Assembly (NCBI GenBank): GCA_009789175.1
Contig: CP046866.1
Span: 1,054,001-1,118,000, forward strand
Reading direction: 5' to 3'
Source of the DNA: Salinibaculum litoreum
Lineage (GTDB): Archaea > Halobacteriota > Halobacteria > Halobacteriales > Haloarculaceae
Length of the DNA stretch: 64,000 nt
Shown here: positions 328 through 44,776 of the stretch, in pieces
Layout: every line of letters starts with the position of its first letter
Numbering within the stretch: the stretch's first letter is position 1
The notes under the pieces: model-generated
What the model was told of the DNA's origin: nothing
Seen by the model: the letters and a program-made list of their open reading frames with translations, nothing else
The model's database searches: none
Made by a program: the position numbers and the translations under genes

Positions 328-2046
328 TCACCGGACGATTTCGTTCTGGAGGGAGCCTGGATTATCGCCAGTGAGGCGTTTGTGTAAGGCAACGACCTGT
401 GGTTCAGTCATAGATGCAATGAAGTCTGCAACGGCGCGTGCCTTCCGTTCTTCTGGTGTCTCTAATCCCTCTAAATAGACGCTATCATCTTCTAACCAGT
501 CTCGGTATGGTTTTGGAATCGCGGACCAACTGAGCTCATCTTTTCCTGCTTCGTCATACAGCGCGTCAAATAACTCGCGGATTACTTGTTGTTGGCCGCG
601 CTGTTGGGCCATCAGGGACGGTTGTCGAATCACGTAGTATTTCGTGATCTGCTGGAGAATGCTTAGTTGTTCATCCAGCCTCTGTGAGATTCGGAGCTCA
701 CATCCATCGTTGGTCTCCCGGAGCGTGGCGTATCGTTCATCGGGAGTTTCCTCTTCCAATTTCGACTGCGAAATGTCCTGTTGGTAGACGCGATTGAGAT
801 ACTCTTCAACTAAGAATGATGTGAACGCTTCAATTTCATCTCGCTGGTCTGGTGTCCCTTCGAATGGTTCGAGGAGAGTTGCAGATTCCCCAGTGATGAC
901 AACGGTCGTGACCAACGAAGTCACCACGCTGGTTGGAGTGGCAACCGATTCATCATATTCCAATGCGTCGTGGAGTTTTTGAAGTTCACGCCGTGGTGCG
1001 CTTTCGTACTCTCCGTCGTCAAGACCCTCCATATCTTGCTCATCTAATTCTCCGAGTGCTTCTCGAAGTAGTCGGTCGAGTGGGAGCCGGCCGTCCATAT
1101 AGAAGTCGGTCAAGTCGTGAATCGCATACGTAAGGTCGTCTGCATAGTCCATCAGACTCGCTGCAGCGGTGCGTCCGCTTTTTGAAATCGCACCTGATCG
1201 TGCCGCTTCTTGGATTTCTTCGTGGAGTCTGTGATCGTCTTTATAAAACCCAAATTTGTCGTCGGAACGTCCAGGGAGAGTTGCGGGTTCATCGGGCCAG
1301 TCCTCTGGGTCGGTGATTGATTCAGAGTCAGCGTTAAACCATTCACCACGACCGTATGGGTATTTTCCAACACCTAACAGAACACCGAGTGTGAGTGCCA
1401 ACCCAGTATTTGCTTCTCGGTGATTCGCAAGCCGTGTGAGGATTCTGAATGACTGGGCATTCCCTTCGAAGCGAATACCGGGGAGTCGATCATAGACTTC
1501 CTGCAGATACGCATCACTGATGTCGGCATCGTCAGGACTCACGCTGTCAGGCAGTTCACTATCCTCAGGAGGGTCAAGATCATTCTCACTCCGATACGGG
1601 TTTGTTTTTTCCTGGAGCAGGTCATCGAGAGTGGATTCAGCGAGATGACCAAAGGGAGGGTGACCTAAGTCGTGGGCTAGGCATGCTGCTTCAATTAAAT
1701 CCGGATCGATTTCCCGAGAGAGTGTTTCTGAATCGGGCTCTTGTCTAAGGATATATTCCGCGAATCTGCGTCCAACTTGGGCAACTTTGAGTGAGTGACT
1801 GAGACGATCGTGATAGAGATAGGATTCGCCAGCACGTGCGACCTGTGTTACGTCCTTCAGTCGCCGGAATTCTCGGGTGTATTTGACCCGGTCCAGATCC
1901 CGTTGAAACGAAAAGCGTCCGCTTAGATCCTCGGAGTCTTCTTCCGGTGTTTGTTTGACTGGTTTTAGTACTTGGACGCCCTCATCATCTTCCGATTCAG
2001 ATATGCCTAGTAATCGAGCGGTATACCAGTTAACGTCAGAAGACAC
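328..2046 (-). CDS. dgt: dGTPase-family HD-domain triphosphohydrolase
   Basis: 572 residues. The family hydrolyses dNTPs to nucleosides and tripolyphosphate, and relatives in bacteria and eukaryotes (SAMHD1 type) starve viruses of dNTPs. Visible motifs: FRRLKDVTQV (about 60-69), the first metal histidine in RLSHSLKV (H84), the HD pair in AHDLGHPPFGH (H125, D126), GNAQSFRILTRL, and a later aspartate in LMDYADDLTYAIHD. Length fits the family. It lies 12 bases after a small winged-helix gene on the same strand, so the two are probably cotranscribed. Placement in a defence-rich island suggests an antiviral or nucleotide-pool role; that part is inference. Confidence 0.85.
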   Translation of the reverse strand: MSSDVNWYTARLLGISESEDDEGVQVLKPVKQTPEEDSEDLSGRFSFQRDLDRVKYTREFRRLKDVTQVARAGESYLYHDRLSHSLKVAQVGRRFAEYILRQEPDSETLSREIDPDLIEAACLAHDLGHPPFGHLAESTLDDLLQEKTNPYRSENDLDPPEDSELPDSVSPDDADISDAYLQEVYDRLPGIRFEGNAQSFRILTRLANHREANTGLALTLGVLLGVGKYPYGRGEWFNADSESITDPEDWPDEPATLPGRSDDKFGFYKDDHRLHEEIQEAARSGAISKSGRTAAASLMDYADDLTYAIHDLTDFYMDGRLPLDRLLREALGELDEQDMEGLDDGEYESAPRRELQKLHDALEYDESVATPTSVVTSLVTTVVITGESATLLEPFEGTPDQRDEIEAFTSFLVEEYLNRVYQQDISQSKLEEETPDERYATLRETNDGCELRISQRLDEQLSILQQITKYYVIRQPSLMAQQRGQQQVIRELFDALYDEAGKDELSWSAIPKPYRDWLEDDSVYLEGLETPEERKARAVADFIASMTEPQVVALHKRLTGDNPGSLQNEIVR

Positions 2047-2664: not shown

Positions 2665-2914
2665 ACGTCTTGCTGTTACAGCAACAATCCGTATGAAGCT
2701 CCGCCATCCATAGTGAAAGTAGAGTGCTTAGTGGCTTTGAGGTTCTATATTTCTGTACATTTGTGATGGGCTACATTGTATGTCGTCTTTACTTCACTTT
2801 CACTCTGGTTGGATGATGTTTAATAGTCGTCCGGTTACATGTAGTCACATACTTTCAGGCCCGTGATTTGGTAGTACGCTTGGCTGAACAAGTACCCTCC
2901 ACAACACACTAATC

Positions 2915-4432
2915 ATGCTGACACTCACGCACATCGCTGATACGCATCTTGGCCATCGACAGTATGGATTGAAACAACGCGAGGACGACATGGTCTCGAC
3001 CACGCGTGCTGCGTTCCAAGAGATGATCGAGGAACGCGGAACCGATGCGATTCTGTTACCGGGTGACCTGTTCCATTCGCGGGATTTGCGGCCGAAGATC
3101 CTGCATCAGATCGAACAGGAACTTGAACGAATCCCTGATGAGGTGCCGGTGTTAGTCTCGCGTGGGAACCACGACGAGAACCTGACGCCGCGTGACGTGA
3201 CGTGGCTGAATTACCTACATCGACGTGGACACATCGTGTTCTTGCAAGCTGAACTGAATGCGGACGCAGAGACAGCGTGGTTCAACCCGTACGATCCGGA
3301 CGAACCAGGGCAGTCAGCCGGTTTCTACGATATCGATGTTGATGGACTGGAGGAGCCAGTGCGCGTGTTCGGCCTGCAGTGGCGCGGCGCGAAGACCGAC
3401 CAGGCGCTCCAGCAAGTGGCGAATGGGATTCAGGAGACGAATGAGATGCATGGTGAGCCGGCGTGGACCGTGTTACTGGCGCATTTCGGGATGGAAGACG
3501 AGGTGCCGACGCTTGGCGGGACAGTAACTCATGGCGAGCTGCGAGACGTGAAAGATGTCGTGGATTACCTGGCACTCGGGCACATTCACAAGCGGTACGA
3601 GTCGGGTGGGTGGATCTACAATCCCGGGTCGCCGGAAGCTCATAACACGCGGGAAGGGCGGTCTGAGTGGGAGCATGGCTACTACTCAGTCACACTCAAC
3701 GCCGGAGAATCCGAGGCTGGTGGTGACGTGGTTGGGTGCGACGTCGCGCATCACTCGACGAAGCGACGGCCGTACTACCGGGTTGAATTCGACGTGACGT
3801 CCTACGAGTCACCCGGTTACCTCGAAACCGCGTTTCAGGAGCACGTTCAGGATGAGCAGGCTGCGATGACAGAGTACTGCAGTCAGGACGCGTTCACGGC
3901 ACAGGGTGAGCCGCGAGAACCGATTATCGACCTTCGGTTCACGGGGACGTTGCAGTTCAACCGTGGAGATTTTCGGACAGATGAGCTTGCGGAGTGGGTG
4001 GAAGGCGCGTGCGACGCGTTGTACGTCCAGGTGAATACAGGGATTCGGACGGCGAACGTGCAGCAACTCCTCTCGGAGATTGACGAGGACGAAGTGTTCA
4101 AGGATGGGCAGTTGAACACGGCTGCGTTAGAAAACCGCGTTTTCGAGACGATTGCGAAGGAATCGATCTACGATGACCACGCAGCCGATGTCGCTGATGT
4201 GTTAGGGAACGCTCATCAGATGGCTCAAGCTGGCGAAGCCGTTGAGGACATTCGTGACTCCGTGAGTTCGGCGCGCCAGGAGTTGTTCCCAGAGCTGACA
4301 GACGACGTCGTGCTGGACATTGAAGAAGATCCGTTCGCCGATGCCGACACAGGCGAGGAAGCGTCTGATAACACGACAGAGGGCGACAAAGCAGACGTAG
4401 AGACGGATGCAGGGGAGGTGGTGGAGCAATGA
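2915..4432 (+). CDS. mre11: Mre11/SbcD-family DNA repair nuclease
   Basis: 505 residues. Mre11 is a Mn-dependent phosphoesterase that nicks and resects DNA ends with Rad50. The phosphodiesterase signatures are in order: ADTHLGH (D9, H11), LLPGDLFHS (D51), SRGNHDE (N85, H86), LLAHFGM and LALGHIHKR. The C-terminus is an acidic tail of about 40 residues. The stop overlaps the rad50 start (ATGA at 4429-4432), so translation is coupled. It heads a five-gene operon that also holds nurA and herA. In a defence-like island it may be a second copy of the housekeeping enzyme; the rest of the genome is not visible. Confidence 0.9.
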   Translation: MLTLTHIADTHLGHRQYGLKQREDDMVSTTRAAFQEMIEERGTDAILLPGDLFHSRDLRPKILHQIEQELERIPDEVPVLVSRGNHDENLTPRDVTWLNYLHRRGHIVFLQAELNADAETAWFNPYDPDEPGQSAGFYDIDVDGLEEPVRVFGLQWRGAKTDQALQQVANGIQETNEMHGEPAWTVLLAHFGMEDEVPTLGGTVTHGELRDVKDVVDYLALGHIHKRYESGGWIYNPGSPEAHNTREGRSEWEHGYYSVTLNAGESEAGGDVVGCDVAHHSTKRRPYYRVEFDVTSYESPGYLETAFQEHVQDEQAAMTEYCSQDAFTAQGEPREPIIDLRFTGTLQFNRGDFRTDELAEWVEGACDALYVQVNTGIRTANVQQLLSEIDEDEVFKDGQLNTAALENRVFETIAKESIYDDHAADVADVLGNAHQMAQAGEAVEDIRDSVSSARQELFPELTDDVVLDIEEDPFADADTGEEASDNTTEGDKADVETDAGEVVEQ

Positions 4433-7140
4433 GAATCACCGAAGTTGCGTTGGAAGATATCAAGTCGTATGAGGATCGGACTGTCGTGCCGATCGAAGGC
4501 GGCGTGACGGCGATTCTCGGTGAGAACGGTGCAGGGAAATCGACGGTTCAGGAGGCCATCGGGTTCGCGTTGTTCGATTCGCTCCCGTTCAACAACAAGG
4601 AGTTCGTGCGGGAAGGCGCGAGTTCAGGAACGGTCGAAGTCACGTTCGAGCAGGACACGCAGAACGGGACGGACCGGTACAGAGTTGTTCGGTCGGTCGG
4701 CCGGTCGAAGTACGGTGTACACCGGTATAATCCTGATACTGACGAGTGGATCGATCAGGACATCGATTCTAAGACACAGTTGGTGGACTGGTTGTGTGCG
4801 CGCTTCGATGTTGAAGATGGAGACGAACTTAGCAGTCTCTGGAGTTCCAGTATCGGGGTCCCCCAAACGCGATTCCTCTCGGACTTCTCGCAAACGCCTC
4901 GAAATCGCAAGGCAACGTTCGATGCGCTCCTGAATCTGGACGCGTACGAGGAGTCGTGGGAGACGCTCAAGGACGTGCCGGACGCAATCGAGAGTCGGAA
5001 GCAGGATCTCCGTAGGGACATTGATACGCTCACCGGCGAGGTACAAGGGTTGCCGGACGAGCGAGCGGAAGCGGAGTCGTTGGCCGATGACGTTGAGGAA
5101 ATTGAAGCCGGGATCGAACGGAAAACTGGCGAGTTGTCGGAGAAAGAAGAAGAGTACGAAGAGTTGGAAGCTGTTGAAGAGGAAATAGACCGCCTTGAGC
5201 AGGAGGTTGATTCGCTGGAAGGGGACATCGACTCGACTAAAGACAATTTGGGGACGGCGAAGGAGGAACTTACGGCTGCTGAAGAGGCACAGGAGAAGTG
5301 CGAGGCGAACCGCGAGGGGTACCGTCTGTACAAGGAAGCACGCGAGCGGCAGGATGAGTTAGAGGACCAAGAGACCGAACGGGACGCACTCGTTGAGGAT
5401 CGAGACGAACAAGAAGACACGATCCAGGCGATCGAATTCGAGGTCGAACAACTGGAAGAGGACTTGGAAGAACTGGAGGCTGCTCGGGAGACGTTGGAAT
5501 CGCGTGAAGCGGAGAAGAAGCGGTATGAGGAACTCGATGACCGTATTGAGTCGCTGAAAGACCGCGAGGACGACGTCGATGCGTTAGAGGAAGAAATCGA
5601 ACAGTTGGCCGAGAAAATCGAATCGAAAGAGCGCGAGGTCGAGGCCAAAGAGGAGACGATCGCAGAAATAGAGGACGAGTGGGAAGCGACGACGGATCCG
5701 GAAGCGCTCTCCGAAGAGATCAATAACCGGGAGGCGAGCCGGAAGCAACTTGAGAGCGAGCGTGAGCGGCTTGAAGAACAGTTAGACAGGTTGCGTGACA
5801 CGGATGTTGATGCGCCGTGCCCGACGTGTGACCGCCCGTTAGACGAGGATCACCGGTCGAAGACGATTGAGCAGCGTGAAGCCCGCATCGAGGAAATCGA
5901 AGCGGAACGTGAGGAACTCGCCGAGGAACTTGATGTGTTGCGTGAGCGGCGTGCCACGGCGCGAGAGGTCAAGCAGCGCGTCGATAAGCTCCCTGTGCAT
6001 CGAGACAAAATCGAGTCGTTGGAAGGTGAGATCGAAGACCTTCGCGCCGACAAGGAAGAGACAGAGGCGGAGTTAGCGGACTTGGAAGACGAATTGGCGG
6101 ATCTCCCAGATCTCGAAGCCGAGAGAGATGACTTGGAGGAGGGGTACGACGAGTATCAGACTGCTGAATTCCGAGTGAAGGAGCATGCTGATGTCCCTGA
6201 TGAGTTGGAGGAAAAACGGGCGGAACTAGAGGAGGAGCAGTCGGCGCTGGCGGAGATTGAAGACGAGTTAGAGCAGTTCGAGGGCTTGGATGAGGAGTTG
6301 GAGGAAACCAAGGAAACGCTGGAAGAGACGGAGTCGGCACATCAGACGTATATCAAGCACGAGCAGCAAGCCTCGCAAGTGGAGGAGCGGCAGGAGAGAG
6401 TCGAAGACCTGGAGAGCGAGCTTTCAGACCTCGAAACGAATCTCGAAGAGACGGAGGTAGAGCTAGAGGAGACGAAAGCGTCGTTCGATGAAGAGCGATT
6501 CGAGACGTTGGACTCAGATATTGAGGAGCTCAGGGAGGAACTGGCAGGTGATCGGCGGTCGTTAGAGCATAAAGAGGAGAACCTGGAGGAGGTTCGTGAA
6601 ACGATCGAAGAGCTGGAGACGAAGCTTGAGAAGCGTCAGGAGAAACTCCAGCAGGTGAAGGAACTGAAAGCGGACCAGCAGTTCGCCGATTGGGTGCGGG
6701 AGAACGTCCGCGAGGCCGGGCCAAAAATGCGGGAGATTATCACCGACCGGATTGGATCCCGGGCGAATGAGTTGTTCCGGTCGATCCGCGGCGCGTCGGC
6801 TGAGACGCTGGAGTGGACGAGCGACTACGAAATCGTCGTGCACGATGCGGATGTCCGAAAGTCATTTTCGACGCTGAGTGGCGGGGAGAAGATGGCAGCT
6901 GCACTTGCGGTGCGGCTGGCGATTCTCGAACAGTTAGCGTCCGTGGGGATCGCGTTCTTGGACGAACCGACGGCGAACCTTGACCGTCAAAAGAAACGGA
7001 ATCTGGTCACCCAGCTCAAACAGCTGGATAGCTTCGAGCAACTCACGGTGATCAGTCACGACCAGACGTTCGATTCGATGACTGACTACACGATCACCAT
7101 CGAGAAAGACCGGCAGACATCGGAGGTGTCGGTCAATTAA
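4429..7140 (+). CDS. rad50: Rad50/SbcC-family ATPase
   Basis: 903 residues, normal for Rad50. N-terminal Walker A (LGENGAGKST, about 30-39), two long Glu/Lys/Arg-rich coiled coils, a central zinc hook CPTCDRPL near residue 463, and a C-terminal ATPase half with the signature LSGGEKMAAAL and Walker B IAFLDEPTANLD. It partners Mre11 in ATP-gated end processing. A Shine-Dalgarno-like GGAGGTG at 4414-4420 inside the end of mre11 precedes the ATG by 8 bases. The final A of its stop is the first base of the nurA ATG (TAATG). Confidence 0.93.
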   Translation: MRITEVALEDIKSYEDRTVVPIEGGVTAILGENGAGKSTVQEAIGFALFDSLPFNNKEFVREGASSGTVEVTFEQDTQNGTDRYRVVRSVGRSKYGVHRYNPDTDEWIDQDIDSKTQLVDWLCARFDVEDGDELSSLWSSSIGVPQTRFLSDFSQTPRNRKATFDALLNLDAYEESWETLKDVPDAIESRKQDLRRDIDTLTGEVQGLPDERAEAESLADDVEEIEAGIERKTGELSEKEEEYEELEAVEEEIDRLEQEVDSLEGDIDSTKDNLGTAKEELTAAEEAQEKCEANREGYRLYKEARERQDELEDQETERDALVEDRDEQEDTIQAIEFEVEQLEEDLEELEAARETLESREAEKKRYEELDDRIESLKDREDDVDALEEEIEQLAEKIESKEREVEAKEETIAEIEDEWEATTDPEALSEEINNREASRKQLESERERLEEQLDRLRDTDVDAPCPTCDRPLDEDHRSKTIEQREARIEEIEAEREELAEELDVLRERRATAREVKQRVDKLPVHRDKIESLEGEIEDLRADKEETEAELADLEDELADLPDLEAERDDLEEGYDEYQTAEFRVKEHADVPDELEEKRAELEEEQSALAEIEDELEQFEGLDEELEETKETLEETESAHQTYIKHEQQASQVEERQERVEDLESELSDLETNLEETEVELEETKASFDEERFETLDSDIEELREELAGDRRSLEHKEENLEEVRETIEELETKLEKRQEKLQQVKELKADQQFADWVRENVREAGPKMREIITDRIGSRANELFRSIRGASAETLEWTSDYEIVVHDADVRKSFSTLSGGEKMAAALAVRLAILEQLASVGIAFLDEPTANLDRQKKRNLVTQLKQLDSFEQLTVISHDQTFDSMTDYTITIEKDRQTSEVSVN

Positions 7141-8405
7141 TGCCGATCGATAAACGCGGTGTCGCGTCTGAATTGGAGGCGAACGTTGGCACGATTAAGA
7201 CGTATCTCGAAGACGATACGGGGATCGTTGAACGGTATCAAGACGCGTTTCAGCGGTTGCCCGACGAGTGGACGAGCGCTGAGATTCGAGCGTCGCTTCA
7301 GGACGCGTCATATCCGGGGGCGTATCCAACGGACGATTTTGATGACGTGGATAGTCTCATCGTCCCGTACCCGGAGAGTGACGGGTGGGAGAATCACGAG
7401 GAAGTGAACCAGTGGGCGCGCGATATTATTCGTGACGTGCCGGTGATGGCTGTCGATGGGTCACAACTCCCGCCGACAACGCAATTCAACGTTCCGCTCG
7501 CGTACGTCCAAGCGGCATGGGCAGTCAACCATCATCACACAGAAGGGAGGCTTGATCGCGGTGTTGAGGGGCGACTCCTGACGCCTGACGAGGTCACACA
7601 GGAATCAGAGGACGGGGACTACCGGTTTGTGGATTCCCAACTCGTGGGCCATCACCGGTTCGAACACGAAGGACAGCTACTTATCGACCAACTCTCGGAG
7701 TTAGCTGACGCGCGTGATGCAGGTGACATCGACAACACGCCGGTCGTGTTCTACGACGGGCCGTTGATCGCATCGTTTGCGAACCCGTTGAAGCCGGAAA
7801 CCCGAGAGCGATACATCTCCACGCTGAGTCGAGTTATTGCAGCGAGTCAGCACCACGAAATCCCCCTGGTCGGGTACGTTGCAGGGTCGAGCGCGACTGA
7901 ACTCGTGAAGATGACGCGACTCCTGTTACGCGACGAGTTCGGGACAGATCGCGTTATCCCAGATGCGCACGTCCTGACGGAGTTAATGAGCCCGTGGGGC
8001 GACACCACAATCCCGTTCATCTCAAAACGAGATGGGAGCATCGACGCGTTGCAGACCACGTACAACGGTCAAACGTACGAATTCCGCGATGACATCTTGT
8101 TCTCGTACCTGAACGTGCCGCCAGGCGCTGGACTCGACCGACTCGAATTCCCCGGGTGGCTGTGCCGCAGTAACGGCCCCGACGGGTACGAATCAATGTA
8201 CGAGTACACCATTGACATTGTCCGGGCAGAAGCAGGCATCGGACGTGGCTATCCCGAAATCCTCCAACAGGCCGATAGCGACGCTGTGTTAGACCATCAG
8301 GACCGGCAACAATTCCAGCGCGTCGTCCAACGCTGGGCAGAATCGAACGACGTGCCGCTGGAATGGGACGCCAAAGCACTAAGCAAGGAACTTCGCCGAC
8401 GATGA
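7140..8405 (+). CDS. nurA: NurA 5'-3' nuclease
   Basis: 421 residues. NurA is an RNase-H-fold nuclease that works with the HerA translocase to make 3' overhangs. Key motifs: VMAVDGSQ (D106), the FYDGPL motif (about D206), GYVAGSSATELVKMTR, and a C-terminal block ending in QRVVQRWAESNDVPLEWD. The start overlaps the rad50 stop by one base. Being between rad50 and herA is the arrangement known from thermophilic archaea, where the four proteins cooperate in end resection. Confidence 0.88.
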   Translation: MPIDKRGVASELEANVGTIKTYLEDDTGIVERYQDAFQRLPDEWTSAEIRASLQDASYPGAYPTDDFDDVDSLIVPYPESDGWENHEEVNQWARDIIRDVPVMAVDGSQLPPTTQFNVPLAYVQAAWAVNHHHTEGRLDRGVEGRLLTPDEVTQESEDGDYRFVDSQLVGHHRFEHEGQLLIDQLSELADARDAGDIDNTPVVFYDGPLIASFANPLKPETRERYISTLSRVIAASQHHEIPLVGYVAGSSATELVKMTRLLLRDEFGTDRVIPDAHVLTELMSPWGDTTIPFISKRDGSIDALQTTYNGQTYEFRDDILFSYLNVPPGAGLDRLEFPGWLCRSNGPDGYESMYEYTIDIVRAEAGIGRGYPEILQQADSDAVLDHQDRQQFQRVVQRWAESNDVPLEWDAKALSKELRRR

Positions 8406-8478
8406 TTCATCACCACACCCCACACGCACCAGCAGGATGCACCGCGCGACAACCAGACGACAATATGGAGACGGAACT

Positions 8479-9144
8479 ATGACAGACACTCCACCGGACG
8501 GAGAGAGTCCGGATATCGATTCGTGCGTTCGGATTGGCAGCATCGTGTCCTCGAACAGCCACTTGGATTACGTCGTCGAGGTCTACAAGGAACGAGACTG
8601 TGATCGCCCACCGGAGCTTCACGAGCGCGAGTTCGGGCAACCAGTCTTCATCAAGAAAACCGTCAACGGAACTGAGCACGCAGTCATTGGCGTAATTTAT
8701 GACACGCAGTTAGTCGATCCTGATCAGGGGCGGACTGGGCCGCGGTTAGCGCAGGACGACCAGGCTCAATTCACGCCGGGGTACATCGAAGAGCGCACCA
8801 CGCTCGCTGGCGTGGCGCTTCTCGGTACTGCAGAAATCGCCGAAGACGGGGCAGTACAGGAGCCAACGCATCAAATGCCGCGGTGGACGTTAGAAGTTGA
8901 GGATACCGTCTTCCACTGTCCGGATCAGGTCACGGTTTCCTTCCATACCATCGATGAGCAGATTCAGCTGGCGTACATGGATCGGCTCTTGGATATTGCT
9001 GGTGACCTCGGGTCGGAGGTCATCGTCGCACTAATCGACCGATTGCGAGGGGTGCTACCGGAAGACGATCCGAACCACCGAGTACTAGATGTGGTTGAAC
9101 AGAACGTGCAGTGGCAAGCGCGTGAGCAGCGAGGGCTGGTCTAA
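8479..9144 (+). CDS. HAS-barrel-like protein encoded between nurA and herA
   Basis: 221 residues from the ATG at 8479, preceded by GGAG; an upstream in-frame ATG at 8437 is less likely. The N-terminal half (CVRIGSIVSSNSHLDYVVEV, then a strand-rich segment ending VIGVIYDTQLVDPDQG) resembles the HAS barrel at the start of HerA-type ATPases, but no Walker motifs follow. The C-terminal half is helical. Its stop shares a base with the herA ATG (TAATG). It may be an adaptor of the HerA hexamer. The family assignment is inference from the HerA resemblance and the context. Confidence 0.6.
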   Translation: MTDTPPDGESPDIDSCVRIGSIVSSNSHLDYVVEVYKERDCDRPPELHEREFGQPVFIKKTVNGTEHAVIGVIYDTQLVDPDQGRTGPRLAQDDQAQFTPGYIEERTTLAGVALLGTAEIAEDGAVQEPTHQMPRWTLEVEDTVFHCPDQVTVSFHTIDEQIQLAYMDRLLDIAGDLGSEVIVALIDRLRGVLPEDDPNHRVLDVVEQNVQWQAREQRGLV

Positions 9145-10787
9145 TGGCTGACCGATCAAACGTGGTCGGAACCGTCGCTGGACCGGGTGACGATCCGAAC
9201 GAATTCGTGTTCGTGACTCCATCAGACAAGTCGATCAAGACCGGCGAGTTCATCACGTACACTGTCTCGGTTGAAGGTGAGCCACGCTCGGTGTTCGCTC
9301 GCGTGACGAACCGGGAACTGATTCGGGGGCTTCCTGAAGGGTTCCTTGCGGATCCGGAAGTCGGGCCGGAGACGGTCGCAGCGACACTCGGCGTGCCGAC
9401 TGATGACACTGAGTTGTACCAGTTGACAGCAACGGTCATCGGGTACTACGACACGAACATGACGACGTTCGCTAATCCTCGCCAGCTGCCTGACCCGGGG
9501 ACGCCACTGTCGATTGCACCACACCAGCAACTCGAAACCGTGTTGCCGAACCTCGGCTGTGAAACTGACAGCACGGATATCACGACACTTGACGGAGTCG
9601 CGCACATTGGCTGGCTGTTGAATCGACCGGCAGAGGCGACAAACCTACACATTCCGATCGAAGAATTCGCTTCGACACACCTAGCGATCCTCGCATCAAC
9701 CGGGAGCGGGAAATCCTACACAGCGTCGGTCCTGATTGAGGAGATGATGCGTCCGAGCTCGCGCGCCTCACTGCTCGTGTTTGACCCGCACGGTGAGTAC
9801 GATACCTTGGCAGAAATGCAGGGTGAAGAGGCATTTCAGGGCGAGGATGGGTATGAACCAGAAATTGAGTACTACGATCCGGAACGGCTCCGCGTTCGCA
9901 TCTCTGAACTGGAGATCGGCGATGTCATGGCAATCTTGGATAATCCGAGCAACCGGATGCAAGAGCGGCTTTCGACGGCATGGCAGGCTATGCAACGCCA
10001 AGAAAGTCGAACATGGGGGATTGATGAGCTGATCGGTGAAATGGAGCGGATTTACGGCGATGATGACGCGAGCGTCGGCGCATTAGAGTGGCGGCTCCGT
10101 CGGTCGATCGAGCGAAATGATCTCTTCCACCCTGAAGAGAACGTGCCGCTGGATGAAATCGTGGACCCAGGCCAGTGTACCGTCCTTCAGATGGATACGT
10201 TGGACCGGCGGGATCAGCAACTTATCACGACCGTTCTTCTCCGGCGGATGTATCGAGAGCGACTTGATGACGTGCGAGATCGAGACTCGGATATCGAGCA
10301 TCCGATTTTCGCCTTGTTCGAAGAAGGGCACCGGTTCGCTCCAGCCTCCGGTGAAGCCCCCTCGCTAGGGATCATGCGAACGATCACGTCCGAGGGCCGT
10401 AAGTTCGGATTCGGACTCGGGATTATCAGTCAACGCCCGTCGAAAATCGACCAAGACGTTCTGTCGCAGTGCGGGACGCAGATTTCGATGCAGATCAAGA
10501 ATCCGAATGACCAGGACGCGATCAAAAACTCCGTGGAGGCCGCCGGCGAAGACGTGCTTCGAGAGTTGCCCGGGTTAACCCCAGGGCAAGCGGTCGTGTC
10601 TGGTGACGCGATGAACACGCCGGCACTGATACAAGTACGGCAGCGACGCACACCGCACGGTGCTGGAAGCCGGCCAGTCATCGAAGAATGGCGTGAAGCC
10701 TACGACGAACGACAACGCGAACCGACACAGTCAGAATCTGCTGATTTCGGGGAGGGTGACTCAACCGGCGTTCAGAGTCTGGACTAA
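9144..10787 (+). CDS. herA: HerA hexameric DNA translocase
   Basis: 547 residues. HerA pumps duplex DNA and activates NurA. N-terminal HAS barrel (about 6-110), Walker A ASTGSGKSY (about 184-192), Walker B-like LLVFDPHGEY, acidic motif ALFEEGHRFAP, and the conserved IISQRPSKIDQDVLSQCGTQ followed by an arginine-rich block. The Ser/Asp-rich tail is typical of haloarchaea. It is the last gene of the operon; two hairpin repeats begin about 40 bases after its stop. Confidence 0.92.
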   Translation: MADRSNVVGTVAGPGDDPNEFVFVTPSDKSIKTGEFITYTVSVEGEPRSVFARVTNRELIRGLPEGFLADPEVGPETVAATLGVPTDDTELYQLTATVIGYYDTNMTTFANPRQLPDPGTPLSIAPHQQLETVLPNLGCETDSTDITTLDGVAHIGWLLNRPAEATNLHIPIEEFASTHLAILASTGSGKSYTASVLIEEMMRPSSRASLLVFDPHGEYDTLAEMQGEEAFQGEDGYEPEIEYYDPERLRVRISELEIGDVMAILDNPSNRMQERLSTAWQAMQRQESRTWGIDELIGEMERIYGDDDASVGALEWRLRRSIERNDLFHPEENVPLDEIVDPGQCTVLQMDTLDRRDQQLITTVLLRRMYRERLDDVRDRDSDIEHPIFALFEEGHRFAPASGEAPSLGIMRTITSEGRKFGFGLGIISQRPSKIDQDVLSQCGTQISMQIKNPNDQDAIKNSVEAAGEDVLRELPGLTPGQAVVSGDAMNTPALIQVRQRRTPHGAGSRPVIEEWREAYDERQREPTQSESADFGEGDSTGVQSLD

Positions 10788-10827: not shown

Positions 10828-10925
10828 GTATCCCCGAGACGGGGGATGTCCGGAATTATTCCTGCGTTACAGACGATATCAAGACGTATCTCGCGGTAAC
10901 CCCACGGGGGGTGTCCGGAATTATT
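10828..10925. repeat. Two hairpin-plus-GTCCGGAATTATT repeats after herA
   Basis: A 20-base unit GGGGG(A/G)TGTCCGGAATTATT occurs at 10841-10860 and 10906-10925, a 65-base period. Each is preceded by a C-run (CCCCGAGAC and CCCCAC), so each unit forms a short C4/G4 hairpin followed by an AT-rich stretch. This could be a double transcription terminator for the operon or a pair of protein binding sites. The rest of the 290-base gap to the next gene holds no convincing gene; a 32-codon ORF at 11000-11098 is not supported. Confidence 0.6.
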
Positions 10926-11077: not shown

Positions 11078-13359
11078 TCACCTACCGAGCAATCGTGAGA
11101 AAAGCCCACTCGATCCAGTGCTGTCACCGTCTTCCTGGCCTCCTCCAGATCCATTCGACTGAGACTTCTCTGAACCTGTCTCAGCGGCACCGTTCAGTAG
11201 CTCATCGACGGAGTATCCGATCCACTCAGCGAATTCCTCAGGTGCGCCGATGTAGACGCTCGTGGAGGACTTCTCGGACATGAATCGTTTGGGGAGGCGT
11301 TTCTCGTAGTCGTACACCTCGTATTCTTCGCGGTCGAAGTCAGCTGTGATGGCATTCGGTTCTGACTCGAACGTGACACGGCCGCCCTGAATGTCGCGTT
11401 GCCACTTCAACCGTCCCGTATCGTACGTTTTCTCGGCGGGTTCATCAGCGGGGAAGTAGTCAGGCTGCTCTCGACCGGCTTCGTCGTAGAATTCGCGGAC
11501 AATGCGGCGGACGTCTTCGATCGTGCCGTTCCCGTCAGTCCAGGGTTGTTCGGTGAGCATGCGGCGGGCGACGTAACTGAAGATTGGGTTTTGCCGTTCC
11601 AGCACGCCCGACAGGTCTTCTTGTGCTTCGCGGAACCCCGGATCTTCCGGGTTGGAGGGGAAGGAGACGTCCATGCTCAGGATTTTCATTCGGTTCCGGA
11701 ACTCGGATTTTGGGAGTGCGTCGTTGGTGGTGAAGATGAGGCACGGCTGATCGACGTTGGTGGGGGTCCAGTCACCCCAGTAGTTTCGGATCGGGCTCCA
11801 TCGCTGGATCTTCTCTTTCTCCGCGTCGATGATGGCGTACGGGAAACACGTGTCCCACTCGCGGACGCCGCGGACTTCTTTGACGCCGACGTCGTCTGCG
11901 TCTACCCCGGAGATGACCGTGTTGTCGGAGACGAGTCGCAGGATGTACTCGGTGAGTTTGTCCTTCCCCGCGTCGCTCTTTCCTTCGATGTAGAGGTGCT
12001 GCAGGACGTTGTCCAGCGTCCGTGACGGTGACGACATGGCCTCGGCGTACTGGTTGGCGAACGGGGCCCAGAACCCGTAGAGGAACGCCTCGTACATCTG
12101 CGCCATCACTGCGGTCTCGGATTGCGTGTGACCGTGGTTCTGGACGGTCTCGATGTAGTCTTCGATGGTTTTGAGGCAATGATCCAGAACTTCGGGGGTC
12201 GGCTCGTCGGTAGCGACGAGAATCATCTCGTCGTCCTCACCGATCACGATTTGCTCTGCCTCTGGGAGGACGGACATCGTCGGGATGGACGTCGATTCCT
12301 TGACCTGGTTGTTGTACGCGCTCAGCGGCGCGGTGATGCTGTGGTCCTCAACGGTCGCGCCACGGTCGCGGAGCCCGGCCCCGAACTCGTCGGCAGTGTC
12401 TTTGTCCACCTTGCTGGTTCCCATCCGTATCTTCTCGTCGGGCGCACGAACCCGCGGCCGGTCGAGTCCATCCGTCAACCCCGTCTCGTGATCTGATTCA
12501 ACGAGTCCAACATCCGGAGACTCGTCCTCGTCCGGAGCATTGGGTAAGTCGTCCTCGTCCGAGGAGTCCTCTGGTTCGATGACGTTGCGGTCGGCGTTCT
12601 CGGGATCTTCGACAAACGCGACTGTCTCCTCGGCCTCCTCAGGGTCGTCAACGACGGCGGTAACCTGATCAGCGACGTCTTTCAGGTCCTCGACGGCGTC
12701 CTGATTCAGGGCAGCAGTGTCGCTCACGTCGAGGTCACCCGCACCAACCCAGTACTCGATACGGTTCTCCCGCTCTTCCGGTGAATCGGCCTCCTCCAGT
12801 GCTTCGACAACCCTTCGAGGAGTGTCTGGTCGCTGTACCCTTCGCGGTACTCGTCGATGAACCGCTCGAACTCCTCGTCCAGTTCGGTCCCGACATCGGT
12901 CGTAATGACGGAGATCTGGTTCGTGTGGTACTCCCAGGAGTTCCGCGAGAGGTTCGCCGACCCTTGGACGAGCTTCACCGTGTCGTCCGGCATAACGATC
13001 CGGTAAATCTTCGAATGGACCGTCTTCCGGTTCTTCAGCCGAATCGTGAGTCGGTCATCCTGTCGAAGTCGAACGAGTGACCTCGCCGTCGACACTTCGT
13101 TCACTTGGTCGGCGTAGTCTTCAGCGTTTCCGATAAGTACGTCCAGCGATTCGATGTCGTACTCCGTCAGCATCTGTACCATCAGCTCAGGTGTCTCCGC
13201 GTACGTCACAGCATCCACGTGACGAGCGCCTGCGAACAGATCGAGAAAGTCAGCACGCTCTTTCACCATCGCCAGGCGGTATTCCGCAGCCCCCGATCCG
13301 TAGAACTCCGGCATATCTGCGAATCTGTCGAACGAGATATTCGCTGTCAGTTCGTCCAT
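11078..13359 (-). pseudogene. PLD-nuclease/ATPase fusion gene broken by a one-base frameshift
   Basis: Two adjacent frames read as one gene. The 5' part (ATG at 13359, MDELTANISFDRFAD) carries a PLD-like nuclease domain with HSKIYRIVM and VQGSANLSRNSWEYH. At 12811-12813 (CCC on the plus strand) adding one C would join it to the frame VVEALEEADSPEERENRIEYW, which continues into the long second ORF. That part has an acidic linker, a Walker A-like GKSDAGKDKL, and a sensor-like FTTNDALP..RNRMKIL, resembling SF3/AAA ATPases. The repaired product would be about 760 residues. The second ORF alone has a GTG at 12727 and could make a 549-residue ATPase. Assembly error cannot be excluded because the shift is in a short base run. 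Confidence 0.75.
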
Positions 13360-13457
13360 ACACACGGCAGCGGTCTGAAACGAATAAAACCGTGCCGTGG
13401 GGCGGTAGTAGAACATACGCTGTCGACACTTGGTGACACTTCGACAGCGACGAACGA

Positions 13458-13500
13458 GACTGACATCCTCCCGCGCCGGAGACGCGGGAATTCCACGGGA
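13458..13500. mobile_element. Possible orphan end of an IS200/IS605-type (TnpB) element
   Basis: The sequence ACTGACATCCTCCCGCG, a 7-base loop, then CGCGGGAATTCC forms a perfect 6-bp stem (13470-13475 with 13483-13488). It resembles right ends of haloarchaeal TnpB-type elements as I remember them. No tnpA or tnpB is next to it, so it would be a remnant or a non-autonomous end. The resemblance is from memory and needs a search. Confidence 0.4.
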
Positions 13501-13610
13501 CCACACCGCTGGATTAGGTTGTTAATTCACCGCCTATATGAATCAAGTTATAATAAATAATTAAAACAGACCGTCTTCGGATCATTCTATACCCTGCGTA
13601 AGCGAGAATA

Positions 13611-14048: not shown

Positions 14049-14166
14049 AGTGCTTCTGAACGGTTGCGTATATTTGCTTGCCGTTCAGGTACACCGGCAA
14101 AATAACCACCGTGGTATAAACCCTGGCCCGCTGAGAGCCCCGCCCCCCGGATTCGGGAAATACGAC

Positions 14167-14470
14167 GAGAGTCGCAATAAGTACTACTCTCTACCGGCTC
14201 GGATTTTCCGAATCCTGCTGTGATGGCGTCGGTAATTCAATGGAACTTATAGAACCGCACTCATGCGAGCGGCACAGTCTGGATACGGACGTTCAACATT
14301 CTTCAGGTTCTGAAAGGCGCGCTGCTCATCATACCACCGTTAGTGCTTGTGGCCGTATCAGATCAGATGTGCCTCTGATTGGGTGCCTGTAGGTATGATC
14401 CTAAGAACGTATCAACCAAGATGTGTCCCTCATAGCGGCTGAGTGCCGTTGTTCTGGAGAAAGCATTACA
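14167..14470 (+). repeat. Left copy of a diverged ~305-bp direct repeat
   Basis: Aligns by eye with 17055-17363 over the whole length. Shared blocks include GAGAGTCGC, GATGGCGTCGGT, GATACGGACGTTCA (AATACGGACGTTCA in the other copy), GTGCTTGTGGCCG, AAGATGTGTCC and TCATAGCGGCTGAGT, with substitutions and small indels between. The pair brackets the methyltransferase gene in the same orientation. Confidence 0.75.
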
Positions 14471-14670
14471 TCGAAGAGCGGTTTCACGCGCGCTTGGTAT
14501 CGCTGATCGTTCTCGTTGTTCGACGTCTAAACGAGAACTATGGCTCTATGAAATTCGACGGGGCCCCCTCGGAATCGCCGTGGACGGGGCTAAGAAGCAT
14601 GTCTGTCGTGGTGTCCGGTGCGGCCGTAGCTGGCAGTGGGTAGAACGCTAACTCCTTGAGTGGCTTACCG

Positions 14671-14706: not shown

Positions 14707-16998
14707 ATGTCTCGAACTACTTCAGAAACAAAGTCCGTCGGTCGATTACGACCGTCTACTGGTGAGTGCTACAACTCTCAAGATACCGAACGGGTCACCG
14801 CCACCCAGAGTGCTAGTGTCGTGTCGCATATCACTCCAACCGGGACTGAGAGACTGAGCGTCAGTGACTGGGAACCTGTTCCGGACCGACTCGACGAGAG
14901 CACGCATGATGCCCTCGTAGAGAGGCTCCGGACGGCAGCCGACGCTCTTACCGCGACCATCGATTCTGCTCTGCCCGAGTCCCTACAGGATCAGGTTACG
15001 GAGTGGTGCGCACTCCACGGGCTTGATACTCCGGCTACGACGCATACTCGGACGATCATCGCTCGGCAAGCTGTACTGAACGTACTTCTCAAGACGACAC
15101 TCTACGAGTGGTACCACCAGCACGCCGACCTGCCATCGCTACCCACCAATACGCAAGAGGCACTTCAACGAGCAGCGGATCAAACAGAGAATCCAGCGTT
15201 CAACGAGTACGTTCTTGATGAGATCGTCTGGTTCGCTGACGACGCCAATCTCGCACCGGTAGTCGATGCTCGGGACTGGTTGCTGGAGTCGGGAGAGCCG
15301 GCTGAAGCCATCGGCCGGCTCTATGCAGACCTGACGTCGAACGACGACCGTCAGATACTCGGTCAATTCCGGACGCCTCCATCCGTCGGGACGCTCATGC
15401 AGGCGTGGGCAGCCGGTGGCGATGACAGTGTGCTTGACCCCGGGATGGGAGCTGGTGTCCTATCAAGCCCATTCCACCCACAGTGGGATGTGAGTACAGA
15501 ACCAGCCCACGTTAACGGGATTGACAAGAGCCCCCTCTCGAACCTCATGGGGACGACCGCGCTCACGCTGTACGGGCAGTCACACGACCCGCGTACGACT
15601 GATTTTCTCGACCTCTCACCGGCAGACCTGCAGCGAGATGTCGACGCGATCATCTGCAACCCTCCCTACACGAGTGGCGATTCGCTCCCGGCAGCGTACA
15701 AAGACCGAATCAACACGCAAATAGAACAGTCGATCGGGAGCGAAATCAGCGCACGCTCACCGCTCCATGCGTATTTCATCTACCACGCACGACAGTTCCT
15801 CTCTGCAGGAGATCGTGCAGCCTTCATCACACCGCAAAGCCTCCTCACGACACGTTACGGAGAATCCCTCAAGCAGTTCCTCCTAGAGGTGTTCTCTATC
15901 AAAGCGTTCGTCCAATTCAACCCGGCTGGTGAACGAATCTTCCCGGACGCTCACACGACTGCCCTCATCACATTCTTAGAAGCAACACCTGAGAATGAAT
16001 CAGATGGCGAAACACGGTTCATTCGCGTCGATGACTCGGTCAGCGTGTCTGAACTTCGTGACGCAGTCAAGGAGGGTGGGCCGGGGCGCACCGACTGGGG
16101 GTTCATCAACTGCGTGCAACAAACACAGCTCGATCCAGTCAAGAACTGGGAAGCATTATTCACCCCGACGGACATCGATACGAGCAGTTTCAGACGCCTT
16201 GACGAGTTCGCCACAGTACATCGTGGCGTGACGACTGGCGCAGTCGATTTCTTCTGCCTCTCACAGGCCGACGTTGACGACCTCGAATTAGACAACAAGC
16301 ATCTTTCCCGGCTGATTCGGCGGCCAAGACTCGTCGACGGGTATGATTTCCGTGACGAAGACTGGGAGGAACTACGAGGGAGCGGGGAGGACGTGTGGTT
16401 GTTCGATCCTGACTTGATCCAAGAGATCCCGGAGTCGATCCGCGTATTTACCGAGCAGATGGCTGGAGATGCATCGGGACTACCAGACGGCGACTACGGC
16501 AGTGCAGCGAATGTGCTTGCATATCTGTGTGACGGCGTTAGCAATCACGGTCTATCAGAGACGACTACGTTCGAAGATCGTCCGTACTGGTACCGGCCGA
16601 GGAGACAAGACTCTCCCCAGGTTCTGATTCAAAACGCGAGCGGAGACGGATTCACGTTCCTGCTGAATGAGACACCGGCCCGAAACATCCACAATTTCGA
16701 TGGACTCTACGACGTAACGCTGAACGAGACGGAACTGAAGGCGTTGCTCGCGTATTTGAATAGTGGCGTTGCCGAGCGCGTCGTTTCCAATTACACGCAG
16801 ACCCGGCAAGGTGGTTTGGAAAAATTGGGGCCGGGAGCTCTCAAAAAACTGCCTGTGATTGATGTGACCGACATCGATGATGAGTTGACGACTGACCTTG
16901 CTGACTTATTCGATACGCTGCGAGAGACCACCCGCCGCGACGATGATTGCGAGTCCGTCATTAATCGCATCGATGCTGTACTCCAGCAGACCCTGTGA
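14707..16998 (+). CDS. Class I N6-adenine DNA methyltransferase (solitary)
   Basis: 763 residues. It should transfer a methyl group from SAM to N6 of adenine in DNA. Motifs: GQFRTPPSVG (about 219), SAM-binding SVLDPGMGAGVL (about 241-252), catalytic ICNPPYTS (318-321), and ITPQSLLTTRYGE. The C-terminal 300 residues look like a target-recognition region (FATVHRGVTTGAVDFF, NETPARNIHNFDGLY). The layout is that of Eco57I/type IIG-like methylases. No nuclease domain and no adjacent restriction gene is visible, so it is an orphan methylase or a piece of a system lost from between the repeats. Confidence 0.85.
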   Translation: MSRTTSETKSVGRLRPSTGECYNSQDTERVTATQSASVVSHITPTGTERLSVSDWEPVPDRLDESTHDALVERLRTAADALTATIDSALPESLQDQVTEWCALHGLDTPATTHTRTIIARQAVLNVLLKTTLYEWYHQHADLPSLPTNTQEALQRAADQTENPAFNEYVLDEIVWFADDANLAPVVDARDWLLESGEPAEAIGRLYADLTSNDDRQILGQFRTPPSVGTLMQAWAAGGDDSVLDPGMGAGVLSSPFHPQWDVSTEPAHVNGIDKSPLSNLMGTTALTLYGQSHDPRTTDFLDLSPADLQRDVDAIICNPPYTSGDSLPAAYKDRINTQIEQSIGSEISARSPLHAYFIYHARQFLSAGDRAAFITPQSLLTTRYGESLKQFLLEVFSIKAFVQFNPAGERIFPDAHTTALITFLEATPENESDGETRFIRVDDSVSVSELRDAVKEGGPGRTDWGFINCVQQTQLDPVKNWEALFTPTDIDTSSFRRLDEFATVHRGVTTGAVDFFCLSQADVDDLELDNKHLSRLIRRPRLVDGYDFRDEDWEELRGSGEDVWLFDPDLIQEIPESIRVFTEQMAGDASGLPDGDYGSAANVLAYLCDGVSNHGLSETTTFEDRPYWYRPRRQDSPQVLIQNASGDGFTFLLNETPARNIHNFDGLYDVTLNETELKALLAYLNSGVAERVVSNYTQTRQGGLEKLGPGALKKLPVIDVTDIDDELTTDLADLFDTLRETTRRDDDCESVINRIDAVLQQTL

Positions 16999-17054
16999 TT
17001 CAGCGTTCGGTTCTGACTCAGGTACTTGGCTTGGTGATCCCGACGCTCCTTCAC

Positions 17055-17363
17055 GAGAGTCGCGGTAAATACCACTCTCAGCCGGATCGGATTTCCCGAA
17101 TCCTACGATGATGGCGTCGGTGACCAATAGATCTTCCAGAACCGTCGGGCTCTCGTGCAAGCGGCACACTCTGAATACGGACGTTCAGCGGTTTCCAAGA
17201 TTGGGGGGGTCAGTTGCTGATCACATACTGGTGCCAGTGCTTGTGGCCGCGTAGGATTGGACGTGGCTCTGGTTGGGCGTCTGTGGGTATAATCCTGAGA
17301 ACGTCTTAATCAAGATGTGTCCGTCATAGCGGCTGAGTACGGATGTTCTGGAACAAGCAATAC
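17055..17363 (+). repeat. Right copy of the ~305-bp direct repeat
   Basis: Diverged partner of 14167-14470 in the same orientation, starting 57 bases after the methyltransferase stop. The best conserved stretch is the last 70 bases (ATAATCCTGAGAACGT to GTTCTGGAACAAGCA). Confidence 0.75.
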
Positions 17364-17399
17364 CACGAGATCCACTGAGGATTCTGGCGTTCGGTAGAA

Positions 17400-28178: not shown

Positions 28179-29749
28179 AGGTACTCATCAAGGGTTGTCG
28201 TTTCAGTACTGATGCGGTCCAACTGGACAATCTGTGACTGACCATCTTGGAAGTGAGATTGAATCCTGTCGAGCGGAGAAGTCATGATGCACTGGATATC
28301 TACCTCTCGCAGATAGCGGGCAGCAGCGTCCTGAATGTCAGATTCGAGGTTCGTGAGCGGTTCGTCAAGCACGAGCACCTCCCAATTGTGTGCATCATCA
28401 TCTTCCTGAGCGAACTGTGCGACCGTGAGAGCAAATGCAAGATTGACGAGTCGTTTCTCGCCACTGCTGAGCCGGTCATATGGCCGAATACCTTCAGATC
28501 CTGTTCCCGGAAATTCCAATTCCCCATCGGGAGTGAGGCCGACTTCAGTGCCGAGATCTGGGGCGATTTCTTGATAGACCTCAGAAAGTCTGTCAGTGAA
28601 GATCTCTCGAATTTCTGTAAACGCCTCGTCTTCCAGTTCTTCTATCCGAGTCTCTGCGACAGATATCGACTCATCAATGGCATCAACAAGCTCCTGACGC
28701 CGTTCTAGCCGAGCCTCCAACTCATCTTGTTGAGCCGTGAACTCGTCCAAGTCTTCTCGTTTCTGCGCAAGTTCCTCCTCAGTAGTTTCCCGAAGCTGAT
28801 CGATGTCGTACTCTGCCTGCTTGAGTGCAGTTCTGATAAACTGGTTAAGCTCGTTCAGTTTTGGCTCGGATTCTTTGAGCTCGGTGATTTCAGCCTTTAC
28901 CGCCGAGAGTTCTTCCTCCAACTCTCCGATATCCTCTTTCAGCTCGACAATCCGATCATCTGCGCTGTCAACCTTCTCACGAAGCCGTTCGCGCAGTTCA
29001 GAGAGGTCTCGATCACGCCCACACTGCGGACACCTGTTCGGAAGTCGATTCCGTGCAGTATCTTCCTCAACTAGACGTCCACAGACGGGGCAGGTAAACT
29101 CCTGGATGGCATCAATGATGAGATCGTTTACCTTCTGCGTATACCGGGAAGCATCGCCCAGCTCACGTCGCTTCTGTTTGAGGCGGTCTTCAAGAGTCCG
29201 CCGCTGGTCATAGAGGTCGTCAAGACGTTCTGCAACGTCATCTTTCGCCTGAAGGCGGTCTCTGATGCTTTCAATCTCTCCCGACTCGATCAGCCCCTTA
29301 AGTTCTTCAATCTCCTCGATTCGGTTCTGAGTGCGAGAGACCGGGAGGGAATTCAGGTCCTCTTCGAGTTGTTTAATACCTGGCTCTTGTTCACCCCGTC
29401 TCCGTATCTCTCTGAGATGGCCTAAATCGTGCTTTGCACGGCGGTGTCGCTCGATTTCGTCTTGGTTTTCCGCACTAAGTAGGCCTCGAATCCTGTTGAG
29501 CAACTCTTCGCTGGAAAGGGCGCTAATCGGCTGATTTGCCAGGTTTGCGGGAATGAACTGGAGACGAACATCCTCCTTCGACCCAATATTCGACCTCACC
29601 CCGTCATCAGCGTCATACGACTGATTCGTACTCTCGTACGTGTGATTTCGATCCCGGAGAACAGCGTTGGCATTATCGAAGTGAACATTCACGGTGCTAC
29701 GCTGGCCCGGCGTAACACCGAACGTCCCAGACCGGCCATACAATGCATA

Positions 29750-30812
29750 GAGCGTGTCATAGAAAGCGTCACGTACGAAGCAGCAGGGTGCGAAAAGTGT
29801 GTCCAACACCAGCGCAACCCTGCAAGACGTAGCTTCGGTAGACGACTTCTTGAATGCGGCGGCTACCGAGACAGTACCGCTGTTTGAATACCTTGAATTC
29901 CAGTTTCTGAGAGAGTACGACGTGTTCGCCCCCTCGAAGCGGGGGCGAACACGAGTTCACCAGCCACCAGCCCTCTTTTGCGGCTTTCTACACTGCTACT
30001 ACAAGGATATCTACGGCACACGTCCGGTTGCACGAGAACTCCAGCACGGCCTCGTCTGGTACTACTGTGGACTCGACAAACCGCCGTCTAGGGACACGGT
30101 TGACCGCTTTCTCACCGATCTCGAACACGTTATCGACGATATCTTCAACAGGCTCATCGAGCAGGCCGCCGCCCGCGGCCTGCTCGACTCCACGTACTCT
30201 ATCGATTCGACACACATCGAGGCGATCCAATACAACGACGCCGCCTCGTGGAACTATGATCCAACTGCCGAGGAGTACTACTACGGCTTCGGCTGTACGA
30301 TCGTCTCAACCGGGTCAAAGATTCCGATTGCGGCGGAATTCACACAGGCCAAACAAGCAGACAAAGAGACGGCGATGCGCGTCACACGTGACGCGCTCGC
30401 CGTCGAAACTCCGATCTGGATGCTTGGAGATAGCGCCTACGACATCCTTGATTGGCACGATCACCTGCTGGCCGCAGGGGTCGTGCCAATCGCTCCATAC
30501 AATCCGCGAAACACTGATGACCCGAAAAATATCGAGTACAGGGTCGAAGACCGAATCGAGGAACACAGCGAGGACGTTCAGCTGAAACAATCCATCTTAG
30601 ACGAGACGTACAACAACCGGACAGGAGTGGAACGAACCAACGACGCAGTCAAGGACTGCGGCCTCGGGCACGTCCGCGCCCGAGGCCGCGTCCATGCACG
30701 AACAGAAGTGTTCCTTGCACTGTGTCTCCGACTCGTCATTGCAATCACCAACTACGAGCGAGGAAACGAACCGGGCTGTGAGATGCTATGAGTTGGATTC
30801 TATGACACGCTC
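29750..30812 (+). mobile_element. IS copy 1 (1063 bp) inside the SMC-like gene
   Basis: Ends are 15-bp perfect inverted repeats, GAGCGTGTCATAGAA at 29750-29764 and its complement at 30798-30812. A 6-bp target duplication TGCATA flanks it at 29744-29749 and 30813-30818. It carries one DDE transposase gene. Same length as the copy at 39078-40140, and nearly identical in the transposase. Confidence 0.92.
29799..30791 (+). CDS. IS5/IS4-superfamily DDE transposase, copy 1
   Basis: 330 residues from a GTG at 29799. Catalytic residues are in YSIDSTHIEAIQ (D), MLGDSAYDIL (D) and NRTGVERTNDAVKDCGLG (E). The N-terminal DUF772-like helical domain precedes them. Frame intact, so the element may be active. 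A 13-bp perfect hairpin (29921-29933 with 29941-29953) lies within the coding sequence. Confidence 0.88.
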   Translation: MSNTSATLQDVASVDDFLNAAATETVPLFEYLEFQFLREYDVFAPSKRGRTRVHQPPALFCGFLHCYYKDIYGTRPVARELQHGLVWYYCGLDKPPSRDTVDRFLTDLEHVIDDIFNRLIEQAAARGLLDSTYSIDSTHIEAIQYNDAASWNYDPTAEEYYYGFGCTIVSTGSKIPIAAEFTQAKQADKETAMRVTRDALAVETPIWMLGDSAYDILDWHDHLLAAGVVPIAPYNPRNTDDPKNIEYRVEDRIEEHSEDVQLKQSILDETYNNRTGVERTNDAVKDCGLGHVRARGRVHARTEVFLALCLRLVIAITNYERGNEPGCEML

Positions 30813-40140: not shown

Positions 40141-40435
40141 GTACCCATTAACTGACTTATTCGGGACAAAAGGCCGTCAACGGCTAGTCGCGTTCTTTTT
40201 GTCTGATGCAGACCCAGAAAAGTCATACTCCAAAAACCAATTATCAAACTACTCCGGTTCAAATAATCAAACAGTATCCGAACATATTGACGAGATGGTT
40301 GATTCCGGTCTAGTCTGTGAAGTTGATGGGGAGCGAGCAATAAACTATCAGGTAGCAGCTGAGAGCGCGGTATATGACCTTCTGAACCAATTAGATAGTG
40401 AACTCAAAAAGGCGGCCCCCCTCCGTTCTAGGTAG
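40130..40435 (+). CDS. Winged-helix regulator, probably 5'-truncated by the IS
   Basis: 101 residues. The winged-helix core is clear: YPLTDLFGTKGRQRLVAFFL, SYSKNQLSNYSGSNNQTVSEHIDEMVDSGLV and a short wing. The first codons (ATG ACA CGC TC) belong to the right inverted repeat of the IS, so the original start has been replaced. Whether the fused start is used is unknown. It is not related to the restriction genes on the other side of the IS. Confidence 0.65.
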   Translation: MTRSYPLTDLFGTKGRQRLVAFFLSDADPEKSYSKNQLSNYSGSNNQTVSEHIDEMVDSGLVCEVDGERAINYQVAAESAVYDLLNQLDSELKKAAPLRSR

Positions 40436-44629: not shown

Positions 44630-44658
44630 TCTCTGATTACGGTGTGCTTGTCCGGTGG

Positions 44659-44664
44659 TATAAG
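44659..44664 (-). promoter_or_regulatory. TATA box of the mcrBC operon
   Basis: CTTATA on the minus strand, about 30 bases before the ATG at 44629; leaderless spacing. Confidence 0.5.
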
Positions 44665-44776
44665 TTTCAGTACTATTCTGCGGATAGTTGAGGCGGATGC
44701 TCTGTGGATTGACTCCGCCGCAGCCATCTGCGCGAATCACAAAGGTTCACGTGGCCTAATCGGGAAGATTTGACAA

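Follow-up and report, generated by a model that had tools for sequence, protein, structure and literature searches.

A five-gene operon in the Salinibaculum litoreum window

The window, meaning here the whole stretch of 64,000 nucleotides that was analysed (Salinibaculum litoreum contig CP046866.1, positions 1,054,001 to 1,118,000), contains the genes mre11, rad50, nurA, a HAS-barrel gene and herA, which lie head to tail on the + strand as a single operon (window 2915-10787). All five open reading frames (ORFs) are present where the original prediction had placed them and, as it had claimed, three of the four junctions are overlaps of one or four bases: mre11 and rad50 share 4 bases, rad50 and nurA 1, and the HAS gene and herA 1, with a gap of 31 bases between nurA and the HAS gene as listed. 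The features of the operon are as follows.

2775..2914, + strand: conserved putative promoter stretch upstream of mre11, travelling with the operon (in alignments, DNA homology to several loci starts at window 2775-2795)
2915..4432, + strand: mre11, 505 aa; the metal-binding phosphoesterase motifs DTH, GDLF, GNHD, AHFG and GHIH are all present
4429..7140, + strand: rad50, 903 aa; Walker A GENGAGKS, zinc hook CPTC, signature LSGGE and Walker B LDEPT
7140..8405, + strand: nurA nuclease, 421 aa; invariant acidic residues D106, D206 and D275
8437..9144, + strand: stand-alone HAS-barrel gene by predicted structure, 235-aa ORF; start probably at 8479
9144..10787, + strand: herA hexameric DNA translocase, 547 aa; Walker A and SQRPSK motifs readable

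In Pfam, Mre11 matched Metallophos (5.9e-13), Rad50 matched AAA_23 (2e-17), NurA matched NurA (8.6e-25) and HerA matched DUF87 (3.1e-36). The Mre11 profile also aligned with Pyrococcus furiosus Mre11 (1ii7, E 7e-29) and Rad50 matched archaeal Rad50 structures at E 4.6e-27, while the NurA profile gave no match to solved structures searched by sequence. The catalytic and ATP-binding motifs are intact in the window copy, and few motif losses were seen at the other loci in a survey from which Walker B was excluded, as the pattern used for it was too strict. When the window copy was compared with four to five other loci, the ratio of non-synonymous to synonymous substitution rates (dN/dS) was 0.02-0.18 for all five genes, indicating purifying selection, and all five are therefore maintained. 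Directly after herA lie two 22-base direct repeats (95%), 65 bases apart (window 10839-10925).

The fourth gene encodes a HAS barrel

The fourth ORF had been described as HAS-barrel-like, and Pfam and sequence libraries gave no match for it. An AlphaFold model built from 18 homologues (pLDDT 82.5), compared with solved structures, nevertheless matched HerA throughout the top of the list (best match 8zis, E 1.1e-5, probability 1.00), including HerA-DUF4297, SIR2-HerA and Thermococcus HerA-NurA. The TM-score against HerA was low because the barrel is the sole shared part. By its predicted structure, the fourth protein is thus a stand-alone HAS barrel. The true start of its gene is probably base 8479 rather than 8437, because the methionine at this position (M15) is conserved as a start in the 18 homologues.

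The operon pair is distinct from the housekeeping Mre11-Rad50

A search for a second chromosomal mre11-rad50 pair, which the original prediction had proposed as a check, found one of the haloarchaeal type elsewhere in the source genome (C1:533719-537821). The operon Mre11 and the housekeeping Mre11 share 34% identity, over a short stretch only, and the housekeeping pair is unlinked to the genome's second nurA, which stands alone at C1:2286979, or to a herA of the operon kind. Against the haloarchaeal models NF041030 and NF041035, the operon Mre11 and Rad50 reached 45.9 bits (cut-off 550) and 129.8 bits (cut-off 1000), and we rejected the possibility that they are a haloarchaeal housekeeping pair on these grounds. 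The housekeeping proteins, as in Haloferax volcanii, belong to the same two families but form a separate clade with 100% support. As a side observation, the Pfam NurA model exceeded its cut-off in H. volcanii, our control genome, contrary to a review in which NurA is given as absent from this species (PMC7776575).

The operon is transferred between haloarchaeal families

Counted by NurA of its kind, the operon is present in 41 of 391 haloarchaeal genomes and 23 of 87 genera, the carriers including Halovenus, Halosimplex, Natronomonas, Halorubrum, Halobellus, Natrinema and Halococcus. Wherever the complete set was recovered, its order is invariably mre11-rad50-nurA-HAS-herA (L080 and some draft contigs are truncated). 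A five-gene set in so constant an order is far more than chance would give.

Across the 561 pairs of genomes that have both sets, the operon Rad50 is up to 95-97% identical between families in which the housekeeping Rad50 is at 52-54%, as for the source genome and G214 (95% and 52%, respectively), and in 140 inter-family pairs the identity of the operon protein exceeds that of the housekeeping protein by 10 points or more. Mean identity of the operon Rad50 is 50.8 within families and 52.7 between them, showing no family signal, whereas the housekeeping Rad50 follows family (58.5 within, 47.3 between). Pairwise identities of the five operon proteins correlate with one another (Spearman 0.86-0.95) but hardly with those of the housekeeping Rad50 (0.08-0.20). 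In addition, the DNA block common to loci of several families stops no more than 10 bases from the herA stop codon; this sharp end and the co-variation indicate that the operon moves as a unit. Since the block starts ~140 bases upstream of mre11, or a little farther out, the unit of exchange is the operon with its promoter.

The island of G371 has no alignable counterpart in its congeners G379 and G387 save for a 400-base herA end in G379. This remnant (G379:C1:1959576-1959980) lies ~7 kb from a PLD-ATPase gene and 9 kb from an Argonaute gene and is perhaps a decayed operon.

The five-gene order also occurs outside the haloarchaea

A search with a HAS-gene profile revealed the identical five-gene order beyond the haloarchaea, in other members of the phylum (L134, L135, L136, L138, L142, L144 and L146), and at a further non-haloarchaeal locus, L143, the order is the same with an insert between nurA and the HAS gene. 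The occurrence of one order in several non-haloarchaeal lineages means that the operon is old and that only its behaviour is new. The original prediction had called it a repair set of thermophilic archaea; the archaeal resection operon was correctly recognized, but the set is not peculiar to thermophiles.

In quick, midpoint-rooted trees with long branches, the haloarchaeal operon Mre11 sequences form one clade (SH-aLRT 100), as do the operon Rad50 sequences (90), and both clades fall with the five-gene operons of other archaea, separate from the haloarchaeal housekeeping pair (support 100). According to a published gene-content reconstruction, the lineage leading to haloarchaea lost nurA and had its old mre11 and herA families replaced (PMC7599335). 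The simplest history would be that the old operon dropped out of the core genome and persists in haloarchaea as an accessory set.

The operon usually lies among defence genes

The flanks of the operon were scanned against PADLOC in two batches (187 proteins of 200-1300 aa within 5 kb), which matched 57 and 99 families, including Argonaute, type II methylases, OLD, AriA, CARF, and Druantia and DISARM methylases; Pfam added Mrr, GmrSD and KAP. As a control, the flanks of the housekeeping rad50 were taken from 20 of the same genomes; their 112 proteins matched 12, mostly IetA/TRIP13/mad3-type ATPases and homing endonucleases, with single matches to PD-T4-6 and a nicking enzyme. Defence genes are thus enriched around the operon across independent loci, a location which suggests a use against foreign DNA. 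Together with the second mre11-rad50 in the source genome, the patchy distribution and the inter-family transfer, the defence-rich flanks bear out the original idea of a mobile module; the opposite picture, an only copy that is syntenic and vertically inherited, does not describe the source genome.

The most constant partner is PLD-ATPase, a gene whose product begins with a PLD nuclease domain and ends in a P-loop ATPase. Of the 41 operon genomes 30 have it, as compared to 64 of the 350 genomes without the operon (odds ratio 12, p 2e-12); in 19 of these 30 it lies within 15 kb of the operon. The two occur in four arrangements, with the partner downstream and convergent, downstream on the same strand, upstream on the same strand, or upstream and divergent, and this repeated re-formation of the pairing argues for a functional link.

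Several loci have an Argonaute/PIWI gene close by. A divergent module of Argonaute, DUF2797, an unknown gene and AAA/wHTH starts on the opposite strand ~60-75 bases from mre11 at L050, L054, L055, L056 and L102, and a PIWI gene is found just upstream of mre11 on the same strand at L077 and L079 (24-base gap in both), L066 (interrupted), L082 and L081 (fragment). At L077 (1499-7138) and L079 (12962-18541), AAA/wHTH, a small unknown gene and PIWI lie directly upstream of mre11; given the shared strand and the 24-base gap, an eight-gene operon is likely there.

Plasmids and mobile genes bear on another reading, that the operon is a passenger without a defence role, serving mobile elements in their replication, end processing or integration. 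It is present in four plasmid records, and transposase and other mobile genes are among its flanks, but many copies are on chromosome-sized contigs, no recurrent integrase or element core lies nearby, and PLD-ATPase is the sole widely recurring neighbour. The operon also matched no phage record or viral contig at the sensitivities used, for which reason a viral origin was rejected. We regard the passenger role as improbable.

The surrounding island in the window

The window itself fits the description of a defence-like island given in the original prediction, with the following genes in a stretch of about 48-59% GC, compared to about 59-67% past 49 kb.

328..2046, - strand: dGTP triphosphohydrolase (dGTPase), island neighbour
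11078..12727, - strand: P-loop ATPase half (C-terminal) of PLD-ATPase, the partner gene (a single ~760 aa ORF in most other loci)
12724..13506, - strand: PLD-nuclease half (N-terminal) of PLD-ATPase, shortened by a one-base deletion
14707..16998, + strand: Eco57I/N6-type DNA methyltransferase, found near PLD-ATPase at several loci
35380-38343: HsdR
41957-44740: EVE-AAA McrB-like ATPase

The PLD-ATPase of the window lacks one base that is present in L044, between 12810 and 12811; this deletion splits the gene and reflects either recent inactivation or a sequencing error. The predicted structure of its C-terminal half is of low confidence (pLDDT 56). Direct repeats of ~310 bases (71-84% identical; window 14165-14474 and 17053-17368) bracket the Eco57I-type methylase gene, and window 29749-30812 and 39078-40142 both match one L120 sequence (89 and 87%), probably as two insertion-sequence copies. 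No known non-coding RNA was found in the window, nor any tRNA that could serve as an attachment site.

Repair as an alternative function

Several observations weigh against a defence role. The haloarchaeal-type Mre11-Rad50 was not found by these searches in four Halococcus-group (g38) genomes (G073, G253, G157 and G236) or in the complete f1 genome G002, so that the operon is the only Mre11-Rad50 there and may simply be repair machinery. Defence islands gather unrelated mobile genes, the genomes compared are not phylogenetically independent, and the operon and PLD-ATPase both favour islands. The association with the presence of prokaryotic Argonaute (pAgo) is on its own weak (p 0.05), a search of the source genome for Piwi gave no match, and the PLD-ATPase next to the window operon is frameshifted.

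The operon could accordingly be a transferable repair module, a stronger second end-resection machine for desiccation, irradiation or fork breaks that can replace the housekeeping pair, with the island location a mere trace of the route of transfer. By gene order and trees it is the same operon as the presumed repair operon of other archaea, and HerA and NurA are reported to be essential in Sulfolobus islandicus (PMC4351679). Where it is the sole pair, the operon is presumably a working repair machine, and four Halococcus loci (L074, L075, L076 and L078) are syntenic around it. The module can therefore probably serve repair, and it is for the other genomes that we infer a role in defence. The patchy inter-family transfer and the recurrent coupling to PLD-ATPase, methylase and Argonaute are typical of defence rather than repair, however, and most carriers keep a housekeeping Rad50 (matched in 36 of 41). 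As a general account, the repair module thus seems rather unlikely, and for genomes such as the source genome we lean towards defence against foreign DNA as the main use, as judged from association.

Comparison with known systems

The haloarchaeal operon shares its enzymes, motifs and operon logic with the mre11-rad50-nurA-herA operon of Pyrococcus, Sulfolobus and other archaea, to which it belongs by having the four genes in one operon, intact motifs and closer sequence kinship than to the haloarchaeal pair. Elsewhere this operon is a core set, whereas in haloarchaea it is accessory, transferred, placed beside a different housekeeping pair and located in defence islands.

SIR2-HerA/Nezha and HerA-DUF4297 likewise combine a HerA ring with HAS barrel and a nuclease or other effector in defence islands, but the effector of the haloarchaeal operon is NurA with Mre11-Rad50. 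Membership in SIR2-HerA or HerA-DUF4297 was rejected, as the anti-phage HerA models have cut-offs of 800-850 bits and the operon HerA reached ~105, and no SIR2 or DUF4297 partner was found among the adjacent genes scanned. LmuB of Lamassu is, like the operon Rad50, a Rad50-like end sensor in defence islands; it generally carries E to Q in Walker B (PMC10586767). In contrast, the operon Rad50 has a true Mre11 partner, keeps the Walker B glutamate and carries a zinc hook, and the operon is without the LmuA effector. Membership in Lamassu was likewise rejected, given the presence of Mre11, the intact LDEPT and a similarity to LmuB that is that of Rad50-like proteins generally. The main text of a 2026 survey of defence systems in 7,747 archaeal genomes does not mention HerA, NurA, Mre11 or Rad50 (PMC12988326).

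A mobile end-resection operon

The best explanation for these data is that the window carries an intact copy of the ancestral archaeal end-resection operon, now a horizontally transferred accessory module in haloarchaeal defence islands. The proteins and the operon are known; what is new is the life style as a transferable, defence-associated copy. We infer a complex of the five proteins, a part for the HAS protein within it and its defence function. In such a scheme, Rad50-Mre11 would capture and open DNA ends supplied by neighbouring nucleases (PLD-ATPase, restriction enzymes or Argonaute) or by linear viral genomes. The HerA ring would then pump the duplex into NurA, which would cut both strands, and the extra HAS protein might sit at the HerA/NurA interface or dock a partner. 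The outcome would be degradation of foreign DNA, as RecBCD complements restriction in bacteria. More tentatively, and with the chances slightly short of even, the whole five-protein machine may be the DNA-destroying effector of modular triggers (PLD-ATPase with methylase, or Argonaute/PIWI), an undescribed archaeal defence system and the haloarchaeal counterpart of RecBCD with restriction.

If this is true, a core repair machine has been turned into a mobile immune effector, and the operon is a candidate answer to the question of what degrades foreign DNA ends in haloarchaea. The coupling to PLD-ATPase and Argonaute would yield a testable prediction as to how archaeal Argonautes get DNA destroyed, and Halococcus, with the operon as the only Mre11-Rad50 in four genomes, would make the boundary between repair and defence directly testable.
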